The notes: generated by a model not told the origin, from the letters alone. Positions 23,325-35,218 are shown, counted from the first letter of the stretch. The stretch: DNA of 40,112 bases from Polaromonas sp. YR568 (GCA_945860515.1 CAMARI010000005.1:1-40112), one strand, 5' to 3'. Program-made: numbers and translations.

Positions 23325-24437
23325 ATGAAAATCAAATCAGTCACTCCTTTCATTTTGCATGTGCCTGTCACGGGCGGGCAAATCGCCGACAGCACCCACA
23401 CTGTTTCAAACTGGGGCGTGGTGGGCGCGCAAATTCAAACAGAAAGCGGTATCACTGGCTATGGCTTCACCGGCACGCACGCGCACTTGCCAAGCGACCA
23501 GCTGATCACCCGCTGCATTGAAACCTGCCATGCGCCGTTGCTGATAGGTGAGGATGCCAGTGACATCAACCGCCTGTGGCACAAGCTGGCACGCAACCCG
23601 GCTTTGCAGTGGGTGGGGCGTGCAGGCATCACCACGCTGGCGCATGCCGCCATTGACGTGGCGCTGTGGGACATCAAGGCCAAGGCCGCAGCACAACCGC
23701 TTTGGAAGTTGCTCGGCGGCCAGGTGCGTGACAAGGTCAGGGCCTACAACACGGACATCGGCTGGCTCAGTATTCCTGATGCGCAACTGGTGGCGGGTGC
23801 ACAACGCGCGGTTGCTGATGGTTTTACAGGCATCAAAATCAAAGTCGGCTCAACCGTCGAGCGTGACCTGCGCCGGCTGGCTCTGGTACGCCAGGCCATT
23901 GGCCCAGACGTGACGCTGGCCATCGACGGCAACGGCAAATGGAACCTGGCAACTTGCCAGCGCTTTTGCCGCGCGGCAGAAGCGTTAGATGTTTATTGGT
24001 TTGAAGAGCCGCTGTGGTATGACGATGTCAAAGGCCACGCGCAGCTTGCGCGCGTCACGTCCATCCCCGTGGCGTTGGGTGAGCAGCTTTACACCACTGA
24101 TGCGTTCGCTGAATTTTTTGCACAACAGGCGATCGCGTGGGTCCAGCCCGATGTCACGCGCATGGCAGGCATCACCGAGGTGCTGCGCGTGTGTGATACG
24201 GCCCACTCGTTTCGCCTGCCGGTTGCCCCACACGCAGGCGACATGAGTCAGGTGCATGTGCACCTAGCGTACGCCCACCCGGCCTGCGAAGTGCTGGAAT
24301 ACATACCGTGGATCAAAGACTGCTTTACCGAACCTGCGGACGTGGTGGACGGGCACTTCAAGCTGCCGCAATTGCCTGGGGCGGGGACGACGCCTACAGC
24401 TTCTGCTTGGGAGAAGTATCGGCAGGTGACGGCTTAA
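23325..24437 (+). CDS. Second enolase-superfamily enzyme (mandelate racemase subgroup, probable sugar-acid dehydratase)
   Basis: [33 protein letters not shown] (KxK); [48 protein letters not shown]. Confidence 0.88.
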
Positions 24438-25602
24438 ACGCTGCAACGCCATAACGCGTCCCTCGCCCCTGCCCAGACTTCAGCAGCAGTCCCAAGCTAA
24501 CTAGCACCGTTAACTCTCGATAAGCGGTAGCGCGCGACAAACCAGTGATGGCAACGTATTTCTCGGTGCTAATGCCATCGCTAAAAGCCTCTTTCGTATC
24601 AAGCAGCTTGGCCAGCACCTTTTGCTGCCCCGCGCTGATGCCAGGGTGAATACTTCGCACCTGCTGCCAAATGCGTGTTTTGCTTACAGCGCCTTGCATT
24701 TGCTGAATGCTGTGCTCACATGCGCCTTGCAGGCGCTGTATAAACCATTGCACCCAAGCTGTCACATTCAGGTTGCCTTTGCTTGTAGCGGCTTGCAGTT
24801 GGTCGTAGTAGTCGCTGCGGTGCGCCAGCAACTGGTGTGACAGGCTGAACAGGTGCTGGCTGCTTTGCGCGTCTTGTGCCAGTGCCAGGTCACTTAGCGC
24901 CCGGCCTATGCGGCCGTTGCCGTCTTCAAACGGGTGAATGGCCTCCAGCCACAGGTGCGCGACGGCTGCTCTGGCAATGCCGTCTATCTGGCCCTGGCTG
25001 CTGTTAAACCACGCCACCAGTTGCTGCATGTGCGCGGCTACGTCTTTGGATGGCAGCGCTTCGTAGTGAATGATGTCGTTTTTACCAAGCTGCGGCGTGA
25101 CGATCTGCATCGGCTCATCGTGGCTGCGGTACACACCAACAGTAAACCGATTCATTCGCCCAGGGAACAAAGACGCGTGCCAGCCAAGTAACTGCGCTTC
25201 ACTCAGCGGCTGCTGGTACTGGCTGACGGCCGCCTGAATCACGTCCAGTGTGGCTTCTTCACGCAGTGGGGCAGCGTTGTCAATTTTGAAGTTCTTGCGC
25301 GCTGGCTTGGCGCTGGGTATGGCGGCTTTTGTAGTGGTTTTGGCAGCGGTAGCCAAGCCCAGCCGCCGCGCTGCCGACTGGCGCACCGACTGCGGGTGCA
25401 ACATCTCACCTTCAATTTGCGCTGTGGCCAGTGCCTCAAATGCCAGACCCTCGATCGTCAAGTCTGCCAGGTCAACCAGTTGCAACTGACTGGCCATGCC
25501 CAGCATGCGGCCCTGCGCAATGCGCGCGCTTGTTACGGCAGGCTGCAAAGCCTGCGCGTCAAACTCAAAATTGGGCCATTTTTTGGCTTGCCATATCCAC
25601 AT
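24394..25602 (-). CDS. Fic family protein (DUF4172-like N-terminus, class II Fic, C-terminal wHTH-like region)
   Basis: Fic motif [15 protein letters not shown]-terminal inhibitory-type motif TAQIEG ([S/T]xxxE[G/N]); C-terminus [41 protein letters not shown]. Confidence 0.9.
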
Positions 25603-25873: not shown

Positions 25874-26647
25874 TCAGCTTTTGGCCGCTTTGAATGGCGC
25901 TCGATACAGCCATACTGGGCGATCAGGGCTGGCATCAAACACGGCGTCGGGCTGCAGTGCCGAGGCGACAAATTCCAGACTGACCAGCCAAGCGCCGGGT
26001 TTCAGCTCGATTTGCGCCTTGGCTTGCGCCCTCGCCATGGTCTCGGGCCGCTGAAACACATACACCATGTCATAAGTGCTCCAGTCGGCCAGCCACATGT
26101 CGCCATGCATCACCTTCGCCCACGGGCAACGCAGCGTGGCTATCCAGCACAAAGGCCGGCTAAATTCAATGCCGACCCAACGCGCTTTGGGGTAGGCAAG
26201 CCGCAAGGCCTTGAGGCCGTCGCCAGCACCACAGCCAGCGTCGAGGATCCGGGCATTGGAAGGCAAGGGCGCGTGGCCGGGCAGCGCTCGCAAGGCTTGC
26301 AAGGGTGTTGGGAAAACCGGTGCATCGCGCCACGCGTGGATCGGGTAGATGAGCAATCCCAGCGCCAGGGTCAACAGCCAGACCCAAGGCGCCATGCTGG
26401 CGGAACCCGACAGCCACAAAGAAACCGGGAAACCCAGCACCAACGCAAACAATCTGGCTTTGGAGTGTCCGAGCCTCCAGGCCACAGCGCCAGCAACCAC
26501 GCCCGCCAGCGAAGACAGCAGCATGGCGCGTTCTGGCGTCCAGCTTTGGCGCAACAAGAAGCTGTAAAAAAACCAGGCCAATGCCCAGACGACCAAAGCC
26601 GACAGAGGCCAGCCGAGCAGACGGGCCGTGCTGCTTGATGTTTTCAT
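25874..26647 (-). CDS. Membrane-anchored class I SAM-dependent methyltransferase
   Basis: Several N-terminal hydrophobic helices, then ARILDAGCGAGDGLKALRLAYPKARWVGIEFSRPLCWIATLRCPWAKVMHGDMW. Confidence 0.75.
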   Translation of the reverse strand: MKTSSSTARLLGWPLSALVVWALAWFFYSFLLRQSWTPERAMLLSSLAGVVAGAVAWRLGHSKARLFALVLGFPVSLWLSGSASMAPWVWLLTLALGLLIYPIHAWRDAPVFPTPLQALRALPGHAPLPSNARILDAGCGAGDGLKALRLAYPKARWVGIEFSRPLCWIATLRCPWAKVMHGDMWLADWSTYDMVYVFQRPETMARAQAKAQIELKPGAWLVSLEFVASALQPDAVFDASPDRPVWLYRAPFKAAKS

Positions 26648-26688: not shown

Positions 26689-27267
26689 TTAAAACAGCAG
26701 GAAAAACCCATTCACTGTCGAGACAGTGCCGAAGATTCCAAGCAAAGTGCCCACCACATAGAGTGTCGGTATGCTGCCTAAAATTGAGACGGAGAGCAAG
26801 ACAATCGCGATTTGAAGCATGCCTTCGGCGTAATCAAACCAAGGGTCTTGTCGCATCGCGTAGTCCCGGATTTTTTCATGTTCTTTGGCACGCATGAGCA
26901 ATTCTTTTTTCCCCTCTTTGGTATCCGGCTCTGACTCGTAGCGGTCACTGGTTTTTTTGTAGTCATCGATTCTTTTCTGAATCACTTCTCTGGTGCTGGC
27001 CGGCATAGCCACGGCACTCAACAGCTGAATTTCCAGATCGGTTGCCGCAATTTTCACGCTGGTTTGGCGTATGGCTTTGGCTTGGTAGAAAGAATAAGTG
27101 TTGGCTGCCAAAATGTTCTGGTGGGTGGCCTCTTTCATCGCGTTGGATCCCCCCAAGCTGGCCATCGCCAGCACCATGGCAAAAACCGAGATGGTCAATG
27201 CGGTACGGTTTTTTGATTTGTCACCGCCCTGGTGTTCAATCAATTCCGATGTTTCCTGGGCTTCCAT
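26689..27267 (-). CDS. DUF4337-like membrane protein
   Basis: MEAQETSELIEHQGGDKSKNRTALTISVFAMVLAMASLGGSNAMKEATHQNILAANTYSFYQAKAIRQTSVKIAATDLEI with C-terminal TM segments. Start at internal Met 27267. Confidence 0.75.
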   Translation of the reverse strand: MEAQETSELIEHQGGDKSKNRTALTISVFAMVLAMASLGGSNAMKEATHQNILAANTYSFYQAKAIRQTSVKIAATDLEIQLLSAVAMPASTREVIQKRIDDYKKTSDRYESEPDTKEGKKELLMRAKEHEKIRDYAMRQDPWFDYAEGMLQIAIVLLSVSILGSIPTLYVVGTLLGIFGTVSTVNGFFLLF

Positions 27268-27290
27268 TTTTTTACCTTGCTGATACGCGT

Positions 27291-28931
27291 TTAAGATTTG
27301 CCTTGGATTTGCTGCCACAAGGCCCACTCGCTGGCAGAAAGTCTGTCCTTGGAGACAGCTACTTTTTCGAACATAACAGGGTCAGTGAGCAGTGTCAATT
27401 GCCTGATCGTGCTCAGCAATGATTTGAAATGTTCAACGGCGTGTTCCGGGTTGCCAGCAATCGTATGAATCGGCATGGCACTGAAGTTGGTTTTGTCTTC
27501 AAGCTCTTTTTGCACTTGCTTTATCAGCGTGTTGATTTCGCTCACATCCAAATGCAGGCGTTTGGATTCGGTGCGGATAAAGACCATTTCTTCCGGATCA
27601 ATCATTCCATCGAACAAGATGTCGTGGATTTTGGTTTTCAATGCAACCCGCTCTTTCACCAGTTCATCGCTGAAGGCCGAAGACAACAGCGCCGCGGGAA
27701 TGGCAAAGATACCAATACCAATCAAAGCCAAGACAATGGTCATCACGCGACCGGCTGTGGTGACGGGCGAGATATCGCCATAGCCCACCGATGCGAGCGT
27801 GATCACCGCCCAGTAAATCGAGTTGGGAATGTTGTCAAATTTTTCTGGCTGCGCCTCATGCTCAAACAAGTAGCCCAGTGAGGCGGTCAGCACCACCAGC
27901 AGCATCATGATGAAGCCAGCGGCGGCGATGATCGGCCATTCCCGCTTGATCACACGCCCCAAGGTGGCGCTTGCACCATTGTCCCGGGTCAGTTTGAGCA
28001 ATCGCACCAGCCGGAACACGCGCAGAAAACGCAAGTCGATCAGGTGGTGCAAAAGAACTTCCAAAAAGAACGGGAGAATCGCCAGCAAATCAATCACCGA
28101 CGACATTTGTTTGGCTTGTTTGATGCGGCCAGTCACAGCACGGTTAAAGCGCGGCTCCTCCACGCAGCAGTAAAGTCGCATGCAATATTCAATCGTGAAG
28201 ATAGCGACTGCGACAGCGTCCAAAATCACGAATTCGAGATGCAGGATGTAGGAGACGCTGTGCACCGACTCCATCACCACGGCAAACACCGAAATCAATA
28301 CCCAAATACCGATGAAGGTGTGAAAAAAGTCGTGTAACTTTCCACCAAAAGGGCTGACAAACATCAGTGCATGCACTCTTTGACGAAAGCTTCGACCCTG
28401 GTTGAGCAGAACAAACTCCTGGTAAGCAGGTATCAGTACCCGAAACAACTTCAAAATTCTCAGCAACCTAAGAAACCTCAGCACCCGCAGATCGATGGGG
28501 ATGAAAGCCTGCAGATAAAACGGCGCGACTGCCAAAAAATCGATGATGGCAAAGGGACTGCTGACATAGCTTGCGCGCGGATTTGACTTGTTTTTGAACT
28601 CCTCATCTTCTGGCGCCAAGTACAGTCGCAGCAAATACTCCAGGGTAAAGACCCCCACAGAAAAAATATCGAAATAGTGAAAAAATTGTTTATTGGCTTC
28701 ATAAACCGCCGGAACGTGCTCAAACACCAGGGCAAACAGATTCACCACAATCAGGATGCCGATCCAGCGATCAAATCCTTTTTGGTGGTTGCCGGGAATG
28801 TTCGGGTCTAGCAGCCAGGCGTGTAGCCATTTGCGCAGCGGCAAATCGCTAGAGATTTGGGCCTCGGGTTGGTCGTCCACGATGTCGGCGACATTTAACT
28901 CTTCGATGGAGATGGCTTTTTCGCTTTTCAT
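27291..28931 (-). CDS. Voltage-gated-like K+ channel with two tandem voltage-sensor domains and one pore
   Basis: Two S2 motifs (FTLEYLLRLY, FTIEYCMRLY), two S4 segments (DLRVLRFLRLLRILKLFR, DLRFLRVFRLVRLLKLTR), one pore with selectivity filter TLASVGYGD and S6. Confidence 0.92.
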   Translation of the reverse strand: MKSEKAISIEELNVADIVDDQPEAQISSDLPLRKWLHAWLLDPNIPGNHQKGFDRWIGILIVVNLFALVFEHVPAVYEANKQFFHYFDIFSVGVFTLEYLLRLYLAPEDEEFKNKSNPRASYVSSPFAIIDFLAVAPFYLQAFIPIDLRVLRFLRLLRILKLFRVLIPAYQEFVLLNQGRSFRQRVHALMFVSPFGGKLHDFFHTFIGIWVLISVFAVVMESVHSVSYILHLEFVILDAVAVAIFTIEYCMRLYCCVEEPRFNRAVTGRIKQAKQMSSVIDLLAILPFFLEVLLHHLIDLRFLRVFRLVRLLKLTRDNGASATLGRVIKREWPIIAAAGFIMMLLVVLTASLGYLFEHEAQPEKFDNIPNSIYWAVITLASVGYGDISPVTTAGRVMTIVLALIGIGIFAIPAALLSSAFSDELVKERVALKTKIHDILFDGMIDPEEMVFIRTESKRLHLDVSEINTLIKQVQKELEDKTNFSAMPIHTIAGNPEHAVEHFKSLLSTIRQLTLLTDPVMFEKVAVSKDRLSASEWALWQQIQGKS

Positions 28932-28939
28932 GGGGCACC

Positions 28940-29602
28940 TCAGAATTCAACGTCAGAAATTTTGATCGGATAGCCGCCCTTGTCACACACGGTGATAGTG
29001 AGCTGCAGCTTTTCTTTGATCGAATCGGTCGGTGTCAAATTTGATTTGACAAACGCAACGGCGGACCCGGCCGGCGTTGCGATCGATTTGTCAATGTCGA
29101 TATCACCGGCTAATTTGATGTTTGAAGCCGCACAGGTTTCAATCAGCCGAGGTGGCTTCCCGGTAAAAGCGTTGTTTTGGTTTTTTAAACTGCTGCTTAG
29201 CATCAATTGCTCCAGGCAGCCGCCCCAGGTGCCGGCTGCCGATGCGGCCGCAACTGGCGCTGCGGTCGCACTGGCTTTGGCCTCGGGCAATCCGGCTGCA
29301 GCAGGCAGTGCTGGTGCAGCATTTTCGGCTTTAGCCGTGTCACCACCGGCACAGGCCGGGAAAGCGTAGTTGGCTTCAAAGCGCTTCTTGCTCTCGTCCT
29401 TGAACCAAGCCACCCAAGCTTCACCGTTGGCTTTGGCGGTTTCAGTCTTTAATGCTTCCTGACGGGAAAAAATGCCCAGCCAAGTGACAAGACCGAGCAC
29501 CACGGCAATGAGAACTAAAAACATGCCGTCGTAGACGGTAAAGAAAGCTGGCGGCGGCACCGCTGGTGGTGCCTCTGGTTTGGGTTCGGCTACAGTTTCC
29601 AT
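28940..29602 (-). CDS. Uncharacterised single-TM protein with Ala/Pro-rich linker and C-terminal domain
   Basis: N-terminal TM (DGMFLVLIAVVLGLVTWLGIF), Ala-rich linker, C-terminal domain ending ITVCDKGGYPIKISDVEF; 8 nt before the channel start. Confidence 0.7.
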   Translation of the reverse strand: METVAEPKPEAPPAVPPPAFFTVYDGMFLVLIAVVLGLVTWLGIFSRQEALKTETAKANGEAWVAWFKDESKKRFEANYAFPACAGGDTAKAENAAPALPAAAGLPEAKASATAAPVAAASAAGTWGGCLEQLMLSSSLKNQNNAFTGKPPRLIETCAASNIKLAGDIDIDKSIATPAGSAVAFVKSNLTPTDSIKEKLQLTITVCDKGGYPIKISDVEF

Positions 29603-29665
29603 GGTGAATCCTTCGTGGCAAGGGAAAAAAAGTTAAAGCATCCGTAGGCAGTGAATCGCCGATTA

Positions 29666-30190
29666 TTAAAAAGGCGCTTTGATGTATTTGGCGCAAACGC
29701 CCTTGATCATGTGGCGCTGCGTGCCATCGTTGAAAGTCAGGGTCTGTACAAATGCACCATTCTTCAAGTCCAGGCTGAACTCTTCCTGAGTGATCATTTT
29801 TCCAAACCGTTCGAACATGGCGGGGCGGCTGACAAAGGCTTTCGAGCCTTCCATCCGCAGCGCACCCTTGCGCGATTCCGAGATCGAGTACTCACCTTGA
29901 TACCAGCCCGTTTTCCCCTCGAGATCAAGTCCGGCAACCAGATATTCAGAGTGCACCTTTGGCTCAGACCGCAGCTCGGCTTTCGGCGTCGAAACGGTCA
30001 CTTCACAAAAAAAACTCACCGGCGTTTTGCCTAATTTCGGCAGCTGGCTGTCAAGTTCCTTGTCGCGGTCAGCCACTTGGGGCGTGGCGATATGAATCCA
30101 GCCTTGTGTGTTGGCAACCCAGCCCAGCGCCCCCAACGCTGAAGTCGTCAATAAAGCGGTCGACAAGATGGCAGTCCAGTTTTTACTCAT
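29666..30190 (-). CDS. Uncharacterised exported/membrane-anchored protein
   Basis: MSKNWTAILSTALLTTSALGALGWVANTQGW signal/TM, then a soluble domain; collinear with its neighbours. Confidence 0.65.
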   Translation of the reverse strand: MSKNWTAILSTALLTTSALGALGWVANTQGWIHIATPQVADRDKELDSQLPKLGKTPVSFFCEVTVSTPKAELRSEPKVHSEYLVAGLDLEGKTGWYQGEYSISESRKGALRMEGSKAFVSRPAMFERFGKMITQEEFSLDLKNGAFVQTLTFNDGTQRHMIKGVCAKYIKAPF

Positions 30191-30232
30191 GGTCGTTCCG
30201 GTAGTGGGGTGGCGTGCACAGTTTGAAAGCCA

Positions 30233-31537
30233 TCAGTTCATCACGATTTCCCGGCCATTGCGGGGCTGCACCGGGCGTGCGTTGTTCTTGAACGGAAATG
30301 CGGTGACTTGAGCGCTTGACACGTTGACTGGCGTCCGCAGAATAAAGAAGCTGACGCTCTCGGTGCAAGGCGGGGTGGTGAGCGAGCCCTCATAGCTGTA
30401 AAACTCGAATTCACGGGGCAGCAGGCTAGCGGGGTTAAATTTGATGCCTTCAGGGCTGGACTCAGCGTCTTGCTCCGTCGGCAGATTGTCCCAAAGCGTT
30501 TTTATGGCCGGGTTTTCGTTGCCTTCTTTGAGCAACACACCCAGCACCGCCAGTTTGCCGGCCGCGTTTTTGTGAACAAAATGGATCACCATGGCCATCG
30601 GAACCCTATTGATTTTTTCTTCGCTCGGGCGATGAAAGTGGAACTGAAGCAGCTCATGCGGTACGCTGTCAACTCGCAATTTGCTGCCAGGGTTCACGTT
30701 AACCTGAATGGTGTGTCCGTTGTTGATGATTTTGAGCGGACCTTCCTTGTAGTCCGCGCTAACACTGGTGCGTGCCTTGACAAAAGGCCCCTGAATGTCC
30801 AAGGGTGCTTGCGATTTGCCCTTGGCGCAGGTCGGGAACTCCGTGCCCCAGCGCTCTGGCCCCATGAGCCCGTCGTAGCCCCATTTTGTTTTAGATTGAA
30901 GGCCAGCTTTTTTGTCGGACTTGTCGGCTTTCCCGGCTTTGTCGGTCGATTCAGCCTTGGCGTCGGCGCCACCTTTTTCGGCTGGCTCGGCTTTTGACTC
31001 CTTGCCTTCGGCAGCCGCAGGCGGGGCCTTGCATTCAGGCAATAAATCGACTTTCTCGCCCCCGGCGATCAAAGCCATTTGAGCCGCACAAATGGTATTT
31101 TTTCGGTTTCCTAAATCCGATGTTTTAAGCGTGGCGCGAAAGGCTTCTAGTGTGGCGGGGTCATTGCTGCCTTTGGTCAGCAGCAGCACAGCCGCCAAGC
31201 CGACTTGTTGCTCGTCAGATAATTTCTTTTTTGTTTTGTAGGCCGCTTGCAAGTCGGCCAAGGTGGCTCCGCTGGTCAAGCCCGCTTTGACCGCCGCCAG
31301 TTCCTGCAGCTGGGCCTCCATAGGCGTTAGTTGTTGTTGCAGCGCCACGGCTTTTTCTTCAGCAGCTTTGACCGACTCGCCCGAGGCCTGGAGCGATTTG
31401 GCGGCCTCATCCGCAGCGGTTTGCAAGACTTTCAGCTGGCTCGAACTTTTTTGATTTTGTTGCCAGTTCAGCCAACCAAAAACACCAGCACCGACAAGTG
31501 CCAGAGCTAAAAAGACTTCAATAAGTGTTCTTTTCAT
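30233..31537 (-). CDS. Alpha-class carbonic anhydrase with N-terminal membrane anchor and coiled-coil extension
   Basis: CA domain: WGYDGLMGPERWGTEFPTCAKGKSQAPLDI, LLQFHFHRPSEE, VIHFVHKN, YEGSLTTPPCTESVSFFIL. N-terminal TM + coiled coil + KAD/E-rich linker. Start at internal Met 31537. Confidence 0.88.
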   Translation of the reverse strand: MKRTLIEVFLALALVGAGVFGWLNWQQNQKSSSQLKVLQTAADEAAKSLQASGESVKAAEEKAVALQQQLTPMEAQLQELAAVKAGLTSGATLADLQAAYKTKKKLSDEQQVGLAAVLLLTKGSNDPATLEAFRATLKTSDLGNRKNTICAAQMALIAGGEKVDLLPECKAPPAAAEGKESKAEPAEKGGADAKAESTDKAGKADKSDKKAGLQSKTKWGYDGLMGPERWGTEFPTCAKGKSQAPLDIQGPFVKARTSVSADYKEGPLKIINNGHTIQVNVNPGSKLRVDSVPHELLQFHFHRPSEEKINRVPMAMVIHFVHKNAAGKLAVLGVLLKEGNENPAIKTLWDNLPTEQDAESSPEGIKFNPASLLPREFEFYSYEGSLTTPPCTESVSFFILRTPVNVSSAQVTAFPFKNNARPVQPRNGREIVMN

Positions 31538-31608: not shown

Positions 31609-31637
31609 AACTTACGGGAATCGGATGGAATTGTCAA
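31609..31637 (-). promoter_or_regulatory. Candidate sigma70 promoter for the carbonic anhydrase/channel operon
   Basis: On the minus strand TTGACA, 17-nt spacer, TAAGTT (weak -10), about 70 nt upstream of ATG 31537. Confidence 0.35.
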
Positions 31638-31698
31638 AACTTGAGTCACGATCGATCGCCTTGTCTTAACTCAGTGCCAGACCGTTTCATGTCGGTTG

Positions 31699-32418
31699 TC
31701 ATGGGGCAATCCATCCTGCTTGCAACCAGTGGCTGTAGTTGGGGGCGTAAGGCCAGGCAATGTGGTGGACGGGTGTGCCGCGCGGGAAAAGGTTCGCTGT
31801 CAGGTGGTCAAGCCACTCACCCCGGGCATTGAACTGGGCGCTGAATTGGGCAATTTCCGGGTTTTGGGCTGGGCTGGGGTGCGCGACCCGTACGCTGGGA
31901 TGGCCGCGCGGTGCGCCAGCGGCCGGCCTTGCGGGGTAGACCGGTCCCGAATAGGCGTCGTGCACGCTGCCCCATTCCCGCGCGCGCATGCTGCGGCTTA
32001 TTTTGTCGATCTGCGCGCTGGCCAGGTCGATCGAGGGCTGCTGAAAGCGCAGTTGCCCCAGCACGTTGTCAAACAGAACGGCCGCTTTCGGGTGCGCACG
32101 CAAAACCGCGTCAAGCGGCGTCAAAGCATCGCTGGTGCAGCACGTCAACTCGGTTCCTGAGGCTTGCAACTGGCGACCATGACGCCATCGAAAAAGGGGT
32201 GCGGCCCAGCTGTCAATATCAAAGGTGGTGATTTTTTTAAAGCCCTGCAGCCACCGGACTGGCATCATCCAGCCGGCACTCGCGCCAATGATCAGCAGCT
32301 CTTGGCGGACGGGCTGGACTTGATCCAGCCATTGGCCGATGTCGTCACATGCACCCTGCCATTGGCTTTGCCGCTGCCATGCGCGCCAATGCCAAAGCAG
32401 GCCGCCGGTGCGGTTCAT
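31699..32418 (-). CDS. Uncharacterised protein with SAM-methyltransferase-like N-terminal fold, downstream of fliJ
   Basis: ELLIIGASAGWMMPVRWLQGFKKITTFDIDSWAAPLF resembles a Rossmann GxxxG/acidic arrangement; overlaps the fliJ stop by 4 nt. Confidence 0.6.
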   Translation of the reverse strand: MNRTGGLLWHWRAWQRQSQWQGACDDIGQWLDQVQPVRQELLIIGASAGWMMPVRWLQGFKKITTFDIDSWAAPLFRWRHGRQLQASGTELTCCTSDALTPLDAVLRAHPKAAVLFDNVLGQLRFQQPSIDLASAQIDKISRSMRAREWGSVHDAYSGPVYPARPAAGAPRGHPSVRVAHPSPAQNPEIAQFSAQFNARGEWLDHLTANLFPRGTPVHHIAWPYAPNYSHWLQAGWIAP

Positions 32419-32858
32419 GCGGCCTTTGATTGGTTGAACTGCATCACGCCCAGCGCGTCCATGCCTGCCTGTTCACGCAGCTGATGGTATTTTTGTACCG
32501 CTTTGAGATCGCTTTCTTTCAGTGACTGCATTTTGAGGAGATCTTCCTGAGCCCTGCGGGTGCGTTCCTTCAGGCTGGCCAAGTGGCTGCTGGCTGTCGC
32601 CAGGTCCTGTTCCACACGTTCGCGTAGGAGTACCAACCGCGTCATGAACTGACGGTGGTTGAGGGCGGCCGACATGCCGGTAGAGCTGCTTGGGCCGACG
32701 GTTTGCGCCTGGTACTCCTGCAGCATTTGGGCCAGCCGTTGCCGGCTACCGAGCAGCGACTCGCGCACCCGCAGCGCTTGTCCGGTATCAGCCTGAAGCT
32801 GCGCCAGGCGTTTCTCCACTCTGTTTTCCAGCACTGCCCAGCAGCTACGAACTTTCAT
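32415..32858 (-). CDS. fliJ: Flagellar export protein FliJ
   Basis: Small coiled-coil protein immediately downstream of fliI in the canonical fliHIJ order. Confidence 0.82.
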   Translation of the reverse strand: MKVRSCWAVLENRVEKRLAQLQADTGQALRVRESLLGSRQRLAQMLQEYQAQTVGPSSSTGMSAALNHRQFMTRLVLLRERVEQDLATASSHLASLKERTRRAQEDLLKMQSLKESDLKAVQKYHQLREQAGMDALGVMQFNQSKAA

Positions 32859-32868
32859 GGGGTGATCC

Positions 32869-34197
32869 TTAGAGTTCCATCATGATGCGCAAGTCAGTCC
32901 GGGTCTTGGCCTCGTCTACACCTGACAGCCGGTCCTGACGCAGAAAGGTTTCCATCGTCTCGCGCAGCTCGATGGCCTCGTCAATGTCAACGTTGCTGCC
33001 CGCCTGGTAGGCCCCGACCTGGATCAAATCCACATTTTGCTGGTACAGCGACCAGAGGCGTCGAAAGCGATTGGCCATTTTCAGTTCTGTTGGCGAAAGC
33101 AGGTTTTGCATCACCCGCGAGATCGATCCATTGAGCTCAATGGCCGGGTAATGGGCCGCATCGGCGAGCTGGCGTGACAGCATGACCTGGCCATCGAGCG
33201 AGGCCCGGGCGATGTCGACAACCGGGTCATTGGCGTCGTCGCCTTCGGCCAGCACGGTATAAATCGCCGTGATGGAGCCGTGGCCATGCCGCCCGACGCC
33301 AGCGCGTTCAATCAACTTGGGTAACAACGCAAATACCGACGGCGGATAGCCCTTGGACGTCGGGGGTTCGCCAATGGCCAGGCCGATTTCGCGCTGCGCG
33401 TGTGCCACCCGGGTCAAGCTGTCGACCAGCAGCAGCACATCTTTGCCCTGGTCTCGAAAGTATTCCGCCACCACATGCGACAGACTGGCCGCTTTCAGGC
33501 GCAATACCGGAGAGACATTGGCCGGCGCGGCAATCACCACGGATTTGGCCAGGCCATCAGGCCCCAGCGTCTCGTTGATGAAGGCCTGGACTTCGCGGCC
33601 GCGCTCGCCAATCAGGCCAATCACGACGATGTCGGCCTTGGTAAATCGCGTGATCATCCCGAGCAGCTCACTTTTGCCAACCCCTGAACCGGCAACCAGG
33701 CCCACGCGCTGACCCCGACCGAGGGTCAAAAGACCGTTGATGGCCTTGACGCCAACGTCCAGGATGCGGTCAATCGGGCCGCGGTCCATCGGGTTAATCG
33801 GCAAGCCCAGCAGGCCCACTTGGGTGCTGTAAAGAGGTTTTGGTTTTCCGTCCAGCGGTTCGCCTTGGGCATCAATCACCCGCCCCAACAGTGCATCGCC
33901 CAACTGGGCATGACCGCTGTAACTGCGCACCCGTACCGCGGCGCCCGGTGCAATACCGGTGGGTTCGGAAAGCGGCATCAGGTACAGGGTTTGGTCAGAA
34001 AACCCGACCACCTCCGCATCGATCCGGCTGCCGTCTTGTGCCCGTACGTCGCACAAGGCGCCGATGGGCGCCATGATGCCGCGCGCCTCCAGGCGCAGGC
34101 CCACCAGGCGGACCAAGGTGCCGCTGCGAACGGGTCGCTGCCGCGGCAGTTCAAGCGTGCTGATGGCTTGGTCGACAACCGACTCAAAGTCAGACAT
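32869..34197 (-). CDS. fliI: Flagellar protein export ATPase FliI
   Basis: Walker A GLVAGSGVGKSELLGMI; GERGREVQAFINETLG; VLLLVDSLTRVAHAQREIGLAIGEPPTSKGYPPSVFALLPKLIERAG. Confidence 0.95.
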   Translation of the reverse strand: MSDFESVVDQAISTLELPRQRPVRSGTLVRLVGLRLEARGIMAPIGALCDVRAQDGSRIDAEVVGFSDQTLYLMPLSEPTGIAPGAAVRVRSYSGHAQLGDALLGRVIDAQGEPLDGKPKPLYSTQVGLLGLPINPMDRGPIDRILDVGVKAINGLLTLGRGQRVGLVAGSGVGKSELLGMITRFTKADIVVIGLIGERGREVQAFINETLGPDGLAKSVVIAAPANVSPVLRLKAASLSHVVAEYFRDQGKDVLLLVDSLTRVAHAQREIGLAIGEPPTSKGYPPSVFALLPKLIERAGVGRHGHGSITAIYTVLAEGDDANDPVVDIARASLDGQVMLSRQLADAAHYPAIELNGSISRVMQNLLSPTELKMANRFRRLWSLYQQNVDLIQVGAYQAGSNVDIDEAIELRETMETFLRQDRLSGVDEAKTRTDLRIMMEL

Positions 34198-35218
34198 CGG
34201 GCTTAACCTCAAGAACAGCTTTGTCGCTCGGGACAGCCACCAGGCTGTCCAGCGGGTTGGAACTGGCATCGGTCAGCGCTGGCGTCGAATCCAGCGGTAC
34301 GTGATGTGGGGGCTGCTGTTGTTGCGGCTGCTGTGTCGGTGTCGCTCGCTTGCTGGCTTCGCGGTCGGGATTGAACGCCGAGTTGTCGCGCCAACGCTGC
34401 ACATTCAGCCCCAGCTCAGTGGCCAGGCCAGCGAGTCGATCGGCGATCAAATCTTCGACCTGTGTGTGATTGGCGCTGGCACGGACACTGCCCTGGGCCA
34501 GCGCGTCATTGGCCTGAAGTTGCAAGCCTGCCGCGCCTTTGATGCCATTGCGCTGGCGCAAGTCTTCCCAGGCAGCCAGGTCGTTGGGATGCAGTTCTAC
34601 CTGAATCACCGACTTATCGCTGGCGGACAGTTCATCGATACAGGCCTGCACCAAGCGTTCAATCGCATGGCCATCCAGATTCAGCTCGGCCGACACCAGT
34701 TGTTCGGCCAAATGCAAGGCCAGACGTTTGAGTGGCTCAAAATAAATGTTGGGGCTTTGCTGTAGCACCGCCAGGGCTGCCTGAATCGACGCCAACAGGG
34801 ACTGGTCGCTGGCCAAGCGGGTTTCGAGCGCCTGTTCCATTTCAGCTTGCATCGCCGCGCGGGTTTCTGCAACCCCCTGTGCATGACCCTCAAGGTGGGC
34901 CTGCGCCACAGCTTCTGCCGTGGCAGCGGCCAGCGGGTCTGAAAGGGCGGCAGCGGCGTTCATGTCCGGCCCGGCCTGGGTAGCGTCCGGGCTGCTGTCG
35001 CTTGGGGCAAGCGCCGGGTCGGGCTCGTTTTCGTCGGTCAAACGCGAAAAGTCCGTGGCGTCAAACAAAGTAGCACGGTTGGCGTTCCAGGCGTTTGCCT
35101 CAAATTTACTTGCTGCAAGCTGGGGTTGCAGCAAATCGTGCGCCTGCCAGACCCGGGCTGGACGCGGTCTAGCGGGTCGCGCAGCGGCCCCTGGCGGGGC
35201 GCTCTGCGCATCAGACAT
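34190..35218 (-). CDS. fliH: Flagellar assembly protein FliH
   Basis: Position between fliG and fliI; LALHLAEQLVSAELNLDGHAIERLVQACIDEL...VIQVELHPNDLAAWEDL. Confidence 0.85.
   Translation of the reverse strand: MSDAQSAPPGAAARPARPRPARVWQAHDLLQPQLAASKFEANAWNANRATLFDATDFSRLTDENEPDPALAPSDSSPDATQAGPDMNAAAALSDPLAAATAEAVAQAHLEGHAQGVAETRAAMQAEMEQALETRLASDQSLLASIQAALAVLQQSPNIYFEPLKRLALHLAEQLVSAELNLDGHAIERLVQACIDELSASDKSVIQVELHPNDLAAWEDLRQRNGIKGAAGLQLQANDALAQGSVRASANHTQVEDLIADRLAGLATELGLNVQRWRDNSAFNPDREASKRATPTQQPQQQQPPHHVPLDSTPALTDASSNPLDSLVAVPSDKAVLEVKPDV

Follow-up and report, generated by a model that had tools for sequence, protein, structure and literature searches.

The window, by which is meant the whole stretch of 40,112 nucleotides analysed here from Polaromonas sp. 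YR568 (GCA_945860515.1 CAMARI010000005.1:1-40112), carries a gene, P0004, whose predicted product is a tandem-sensor, single-pore K+-type channel with a dedicated partner protein encoded by the adjoining gene P0003, and this combination is the new element reported here. The two genes lie within a block of five consecutive minus-strand open reading frames (ORFs) that runs from 31537 to 26689 with intergenic gaps of 42, 63, 8 and 23 nt, in exact agreement with the initial annotation, which had interpreted the five as one system. The five-gene set is a patchwork, made up of a P0003-P0004 core, an alpha-carbonic anhydrase (alpha-CA) found with flagellar genes and a further gene, P0002, found with motA-motB. 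The members of the block are as follows.

30233..31537, minus strand: P0001, alpha-CA, 434 aa (Pfam Carb_anhydrase, 1.4e-40)
29666..30190, minus strand: P0002, 174 aa, without a Pfam family match
28940..29602, minus strand: P0003, 220 aa, without a Pfam family match
27291..28931, minus strand: P0004, channel, 546 aa (Pfam Ion_trans, 3.1e-47 in two stretches, and Ion_trans_2, 2.8e-18)
26689..27267, minus strand: P0005, DUF4337 membrane protein, 192 aa (PF14235, 6.9e-41)

The frames of the five ORFs are preserved in three relatives with protein identities of 60-98%, and they are therefore regarded as genes. Each product has an N-terminal hydrophobic segment or several transmembrane (TM) segments, which upholds the earlier placing of all members at the envelope. 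Related loci were obtained by a search with P0004 over one genome per species, covering 84,980 species, and were compared in six frames.

Architecture of the channel

P0004 is predicted to be a 10-TM subunit in which two voltage-sensor domains, VSD1 (residues about 50-165) and VSD2 (about 200-317), are followed by one K+ pore and a conserved cytoplasmic C-terminus of about 120 residues. The S4 of VSD1 is separated from the S1 of VSD2 by 35-40 residues, and there is a single filter in a single S5-P-S6 unit. The filter sequence ASVGYGD (residues 380-386) is the same in 67 of 67 proteins. Both sensors have six basic S4 positions together with an S2 Glu and an S3 Asp; the sites in VSD2 (301, 304, 307, 310, 313 and 316, E248 and D281) are kept in all 67 proteins and their equivalents in VSD1 in 58-67 of them, the countercharges of both sensors being invariant and the S4 charges nearly all retained. 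Since the countercharges of VSD1, most of its S4 charges and the filter are conserved throughout this set, the possibility that VSD1 is a degenerate relic is ruled out.

Sequence comparisons place the two halves among known sensors and channels. VSD2 and the pore align over their full length with KCNQ2 (5.6e-24) and also match Kv4, while VSD1 alone matches Nav/Kv sensors in PDB (BacNav and Kv, best 3.9e-06). An AlphaFold2 model shows two helical bundles ahead of the pore with moderate confidence, and the PDB folds that it matches, those of Kv4, KCNQ and similar structures, have one sensor per subunit; all the PDB matches are channels with one sensor per pore. The S1-S4 sensor with charges and countercharges and the GYG filter in a single S5-P-S6, which characterise the Kv superfamily, are present in P0004; where the subunits of that superfamily are expected to have a single sensor and six TM segments, P0004 has two sensors and 10 TM segments, so that it is filed as a variant architecture and not as an ordinary Kv channel. 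Thus, S4 arginines and the GYGD filter are common to P0004 and the prokaryotic and animal Kv channels of the KCNQ, Kv4 and KvAP types (Ion_trans), whereas P0004 has an additional complete VSD fused in front with no pore between. Two voltage sensors per chain are also found in the two-repeat (2 x 6TM) tandem channels and in the two-pore channels (TPC), but these carry two pores per chain, the TPC assembling as dimers, while the single filter of P0004 indicates one pore for its two VSDs. The open-access papers searched contained no account of a natural channel in which two complete voltage sensors serve one pore.

In a tree of sensor domains, VSD1, VSD2 and the single-VSD channels A and B that often neighbour P0004 (see below) form separate clades, and hence neither a recent internal duplication nor a fusion of the neighbouring single-VSD channels is supported as the origin of the dual-VSD channel. 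A second, divergent dual-VSD channel, with about 52% identity to its nearest relative, occurs in genomes G141 and G245 (L125:1308-2912 and L167:8174-9766).

The partner protein P0003

P0003 adjoins P0004 in 57 loci, nearly all with the genes overlapping or at most 13 nt apart (the spacing is usually 8-13 nt), and further adjacency is seen in L079 and in L125, L126, L127 and L129 (read by hand). A search of 301 genomes of the family and 399 of the phylum, about 700 in all, located P0003 in six, the window genome among them, and in every case a dual-VSD channel adjoined it; one of these copies has a broken frame, and a weak match in G715 (E 8.7e-4), without a channel, was taken as chance.

The protein is predicted to be bitopic, with a short cytoplasmic tail, a TM helix at residues of about 23-45 and a periplasmic alpha+beta domain containing four invariant Cys residues (84, 129, 157 and 206), and its AlphaFold2 model has a mean predicted local distance difference test score (pLDDT) of 86.8. 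Searches of Pfam, PDB sequences and PDB folds gave no match for the family. A pilin-like identity, suggested by the long helix, the sheet and the Cys pairs, was rejected because neither a pilin nor, at E<=0.001, any PDB fold was matched. As its pairing with P0004 is constant, P0003 is probably an auxiliary subunit of the channel.

Conservation of the gene block

The complete five-gene order occurs in the window and in two close relatives, L038 and L039, and nowhere else among the loci; L046 has four of the five genes and lacks the DUF4337 gene. Most other loci are reduced to P0003 and P0004, with P0003 directly ahead of P0004. The check fixed beforehand for the proposed five-gene system, namely conserved co-occurrence in related genomes, thus mostly went against it, the alpha-CA adjoining the channel block only in the window, L038, L039 and L046, and the system is rejected on synteny. 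What survives of the proposal is an envelope gene block containing a K+ channel with two genuine VSDs, and a conserved partnership of P0003 with P0004 and of the DUF4337 subfamily with this pair; the alpha-CA and P0002 are separate from it.

P0005 matches DUF4337 (PF14235) over its full length with 140.5 bits against a curated cut-off of 27. Among the 301 family genomes, close copies are present in G141 and G245 only (56-58% identity, 199-205 bits), and no other DUF4337 protein there exceeds 35% identity or about 45 bits. Both close copies adjoin the channel module in a ureide setting, while the window represents a flagellar one, and the subfamily, seen only beside the channel module and accompanying it in both settings, is a companion of that module. 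A literature search on DUF4337 gave nothing matching.

The alpha-carbonic anhydrase and P0002

P0001 consists of a TM segment, a coiled-coil stalk and an alpha-CA domain. The residues expected of an alpha-CA active site, three zinc-binding His (His300, His302 and His319) and a proton-shuttle His (His275), are all intact in the sequence. The domain matches bacterial alpha-CAs such as 6im0 and 4xz5 (5.8e-50, zinc ligands intact), from which P0001 differs in its fusion to the TM segment and stalk and in its tie to flagellar genes. In G153 (L175) the order is fliF-fliG-fliH-fliI-fliJ-F23-CA, and there is no channel; the homologues of G141 and G245 lie near fliL, fliM and fliN (gene identities judged by eye), the former at a distance of about 170 kb from its channel and the latter on a separate contig. 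The homologue in L175 (418-1719, beside fliJ) no longer has two of the zinc-binding His or the shuttle His and is likely a dead CA retained beside fliJ, and the homologue in L085 has no CA domain; catalysis is therefore not the constant part. The alpha-CA belongs with flagellar genes (fliJ, fliLM) and is not a core member of the channel module. The literature search returned nothing matching a flagella-linked CA.

P0002 has an N-terminal TM segment followed by a periplasmic domain in which a single Cys pair (62, 166) is invariant. It comes after motA-motB in G325 and G148, apart from or without the channel, and thus goes with motA-motB, outside the channel module. A three-TM YLATT protein (PF20303) is located between the channel and P0002 at L085:9679-10281, and a regulator resembling a sigma54 activator by eye adjoins P0002 or the channel in flagellar contexts (L164:6371-7615, L165:8674-9927 and L085:6202-7350).

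Recurrent genomic settings

Seventy-three loci were classified by setting, with L129 (flagellar) and L125 and L126 (ureide) assigned by hand. Two settings recur, both of which had been overlooked in the initial annotation. Ureide/urea clusters account for 29 of the 73 and are spread over several clades of the channel tree, other than the flagellar clades; the order there is OHCU decarboxylase, HIUase, urate oxidase, NitT-type ABC transporter, P0003-P0004, ureD and urea ABC transporter. The flagellar setting (12 loci) is spread over five clades that lie apart in the channel tree and differ in arrangement, namely fliFGHIJ, motA-motB-P0003-P0004-P0002, a facing motB-motA, fliFGHI (L085) and, in another family, motAB-flhB (L129). 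By a hand estimate that assumes flagellar neighbourhoods to make up about 3% of a genome, and that serves as a rough guide, the probability that five of about 17 independent placements are flagellar is of the order of 1e-4.

In many ureide loci the pair is followed by the two single-VSD channels A and B, with the conserved filters TSGYGN and ISGWGN (22 and 20 copies counted), each one residue short of the normal K+ filter (TVGYGD); they are possibly non-K+ channels or silent subunits. BacNav-type sodium channels (NavAb 4e-69, filter TLESW) are also present beside the module in L052, L063 and G245. Their positions are listed below.

L040:9751-11600, L057:9583-11543 and L125:3799-5671: tandem single-VSD channels after P0004 in ureide loci
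L052:1907-5033, L063:1976-5254 and L126:763-1623: BacNav beside the dual-VSD channel

In L052 and L063, two small ChrA-like transporter halves, identified by eye, lie between two BacNavs. A ZIP-transporter-like protein fused to a cyclic-nucleotide-binding domain lies between the channels and ureD (L095:2828-4213 and similar). The record of L061, titled Rickettsia typhi, has a ureide/channel locus of the Burkholderiales type and is almost certainly a mislabelled metagenome-assembled genome.

Neighbouring genes and control elements

Upstream of the five-gene block, the window carries fliF-fliG-fliH-fliI-fliJ. The features next to the block, including a putative control element, are given below.

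32415..34269, minus strand: fliJ and fliI, immediately upstream (FliJ 1.9e-06; ATP-synt_ab 4.9e-79 with T3SS_ATPase_C)
31699..32418, minus strand: 239-aa protein between fliJ and the CA gene, possibly methyltransferase-like as judged by eye, accompanying the CA gene (L175: fliJ-F23-CA)
31621..31644, minus strand: sigma28 (FliA)-like element, TCAAGTTT-N12-CCGA, upstream of the CA gene

A methyltransferase-like gene (25874-26647) lies about 41 nt downstream of the block, and a Fic protein with DUF4172 is encoded further downstream at 24394-25602. Within the block, promoter-like and terminator-like sites are no more frequent than expected by chance.

The sigma28-like element is the sole exact match in the window genome (86% complete) and is conserved upstream of the CA gene in four loci (the window, L038, L039 and L046). 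It hints that the CA operon is under flagellar control, but remains a lead only, because no second flagellar promoter emerged from the same search of this incomplete genome. In Limnohabitans, a comparable motif ahead of P0003 is better read as a sigma70 promoter, since L098 retains only the sigma70 part.

Probable functions

The pairing and its settings suggest, with about even confidence, a voltage-gated K+ channel with P0003 as an auxiliary periplasmic subunit, which would reset the membrane potential next to machinery loading the proton-motive force. In the window, a flagellar fliFGHIJ-CA-P0002 block would then end in a two-gene electrical module, P0003 and P0004, accompanied by the DUF4337 protein. 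Four P0004 subunits would assemble into a K+-selective channel that has eight voltage sensors for a single pore and opens upon depolarisation, and P0003, anchored beside it and in contact with it, would modulate it from the periplasm through its disulphide-braced domain. The resulting K+ movement would restore or clamp the membrane potential where the neighbouring machine loads the proton-motive force, that is, flagellar stators in one set of genomes and ureide/urea uptake with ammonia-producing catabolism in another. The alpha-CA and P0002 would be flagellar-locus neighbours, perhaps aiding the motor, for instance by fast proton exchange at the periplasmic face.

Several observations weigh against this proposal. 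The pLDDT of the P0004 model is 74.8 and is lowest at the filter, P0003 is missing beside the second dual-VSD channel in both G141 and G245, and 17 loci belong to neither setting. Further, the flagellar link cannot be universal, because many holders of the ureide setting are Limnohabitans, which are generally described as non-motile. A precedent is provided by alkaliphilic Bacillus, in which a voltage-gated Nav channel (NavBP/NsvBa), together with the MotPS stators, supports motility and pH homeostasis (PMC4225499); that channel is, however, a Na+ or non-selective BacNav with one VSD, whereas P0004 combines two VSDs with a K+-type filter and has a partner protein of its own. A wider role, in which an eight-sensor K+ channel with a beta-type subunit, sometimes beside voltage-gated Na+ and atypical-filter channels, serves the flagellar motor and nitrogen catabolism by enabling membrane-potential pulses to be fired and reset, is speculative and rather unlikely.

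It is doubtful that the module acts as an ammonium/pH safety valve, passing NH4+ or K+ against the charge moved in ureide/urea breakdown, with the flagellar placements incidental. The ureide/urea loci, in which the pair often lies directly between the NitT-type ABC transporter and ureD and is often trailed by the channels with shortened filters, favour such a role, but the rise of the flagellar placement in five clades and the canonical-type filter SVGYGD in 67 of 67 P0004 proteins do not. Genomic happenstance, with the pair as a mobile or selfish-like cassette landing in permissive slots of flagellar and nitrogen clusters, likewise appears improbable; its patchy presence (5 of 301 family genomes), the several unrelated settings and the differing contexts of sister clades are as such a cassette would leave them, whereas separate clades share the same two functional themes despite differing gene arrangements, and neither an integrase nor repeats were noticed at the pair, though no systematic search was made. 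The pH/CO2-responsive five-protein module first proposed, in which the anchored alpha-CA would gate or feed the K+ channel through periplasmic CO2/HCO3-/H+ chemistry, is very unlikely, for against the shared strand, short gaps and identical order in the window, L038 and L039, the intact CA active site in the window and the presence of CA and channel genes, though at different places, in G141 and G245 stand the absence of a CA beside the channel in more than 50 loci, the location of the CA with fliJ or fliLM elsewhere, the lack of its domain in L085 and the loss of its ligands in L175, and the trailing of motAB by P0002 apart from or without the channel.

The dual-VSD, single-pore channel would offer a new test object for the coupling of sensors to a pore, and P0003 would be a candidate for an auxiliary Kv-channel subunit in bacteria. 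The recurrent link of the pair to flagellar motor and urea/ureide genes makes testable the question of why bacteria have voltage-gated channels.

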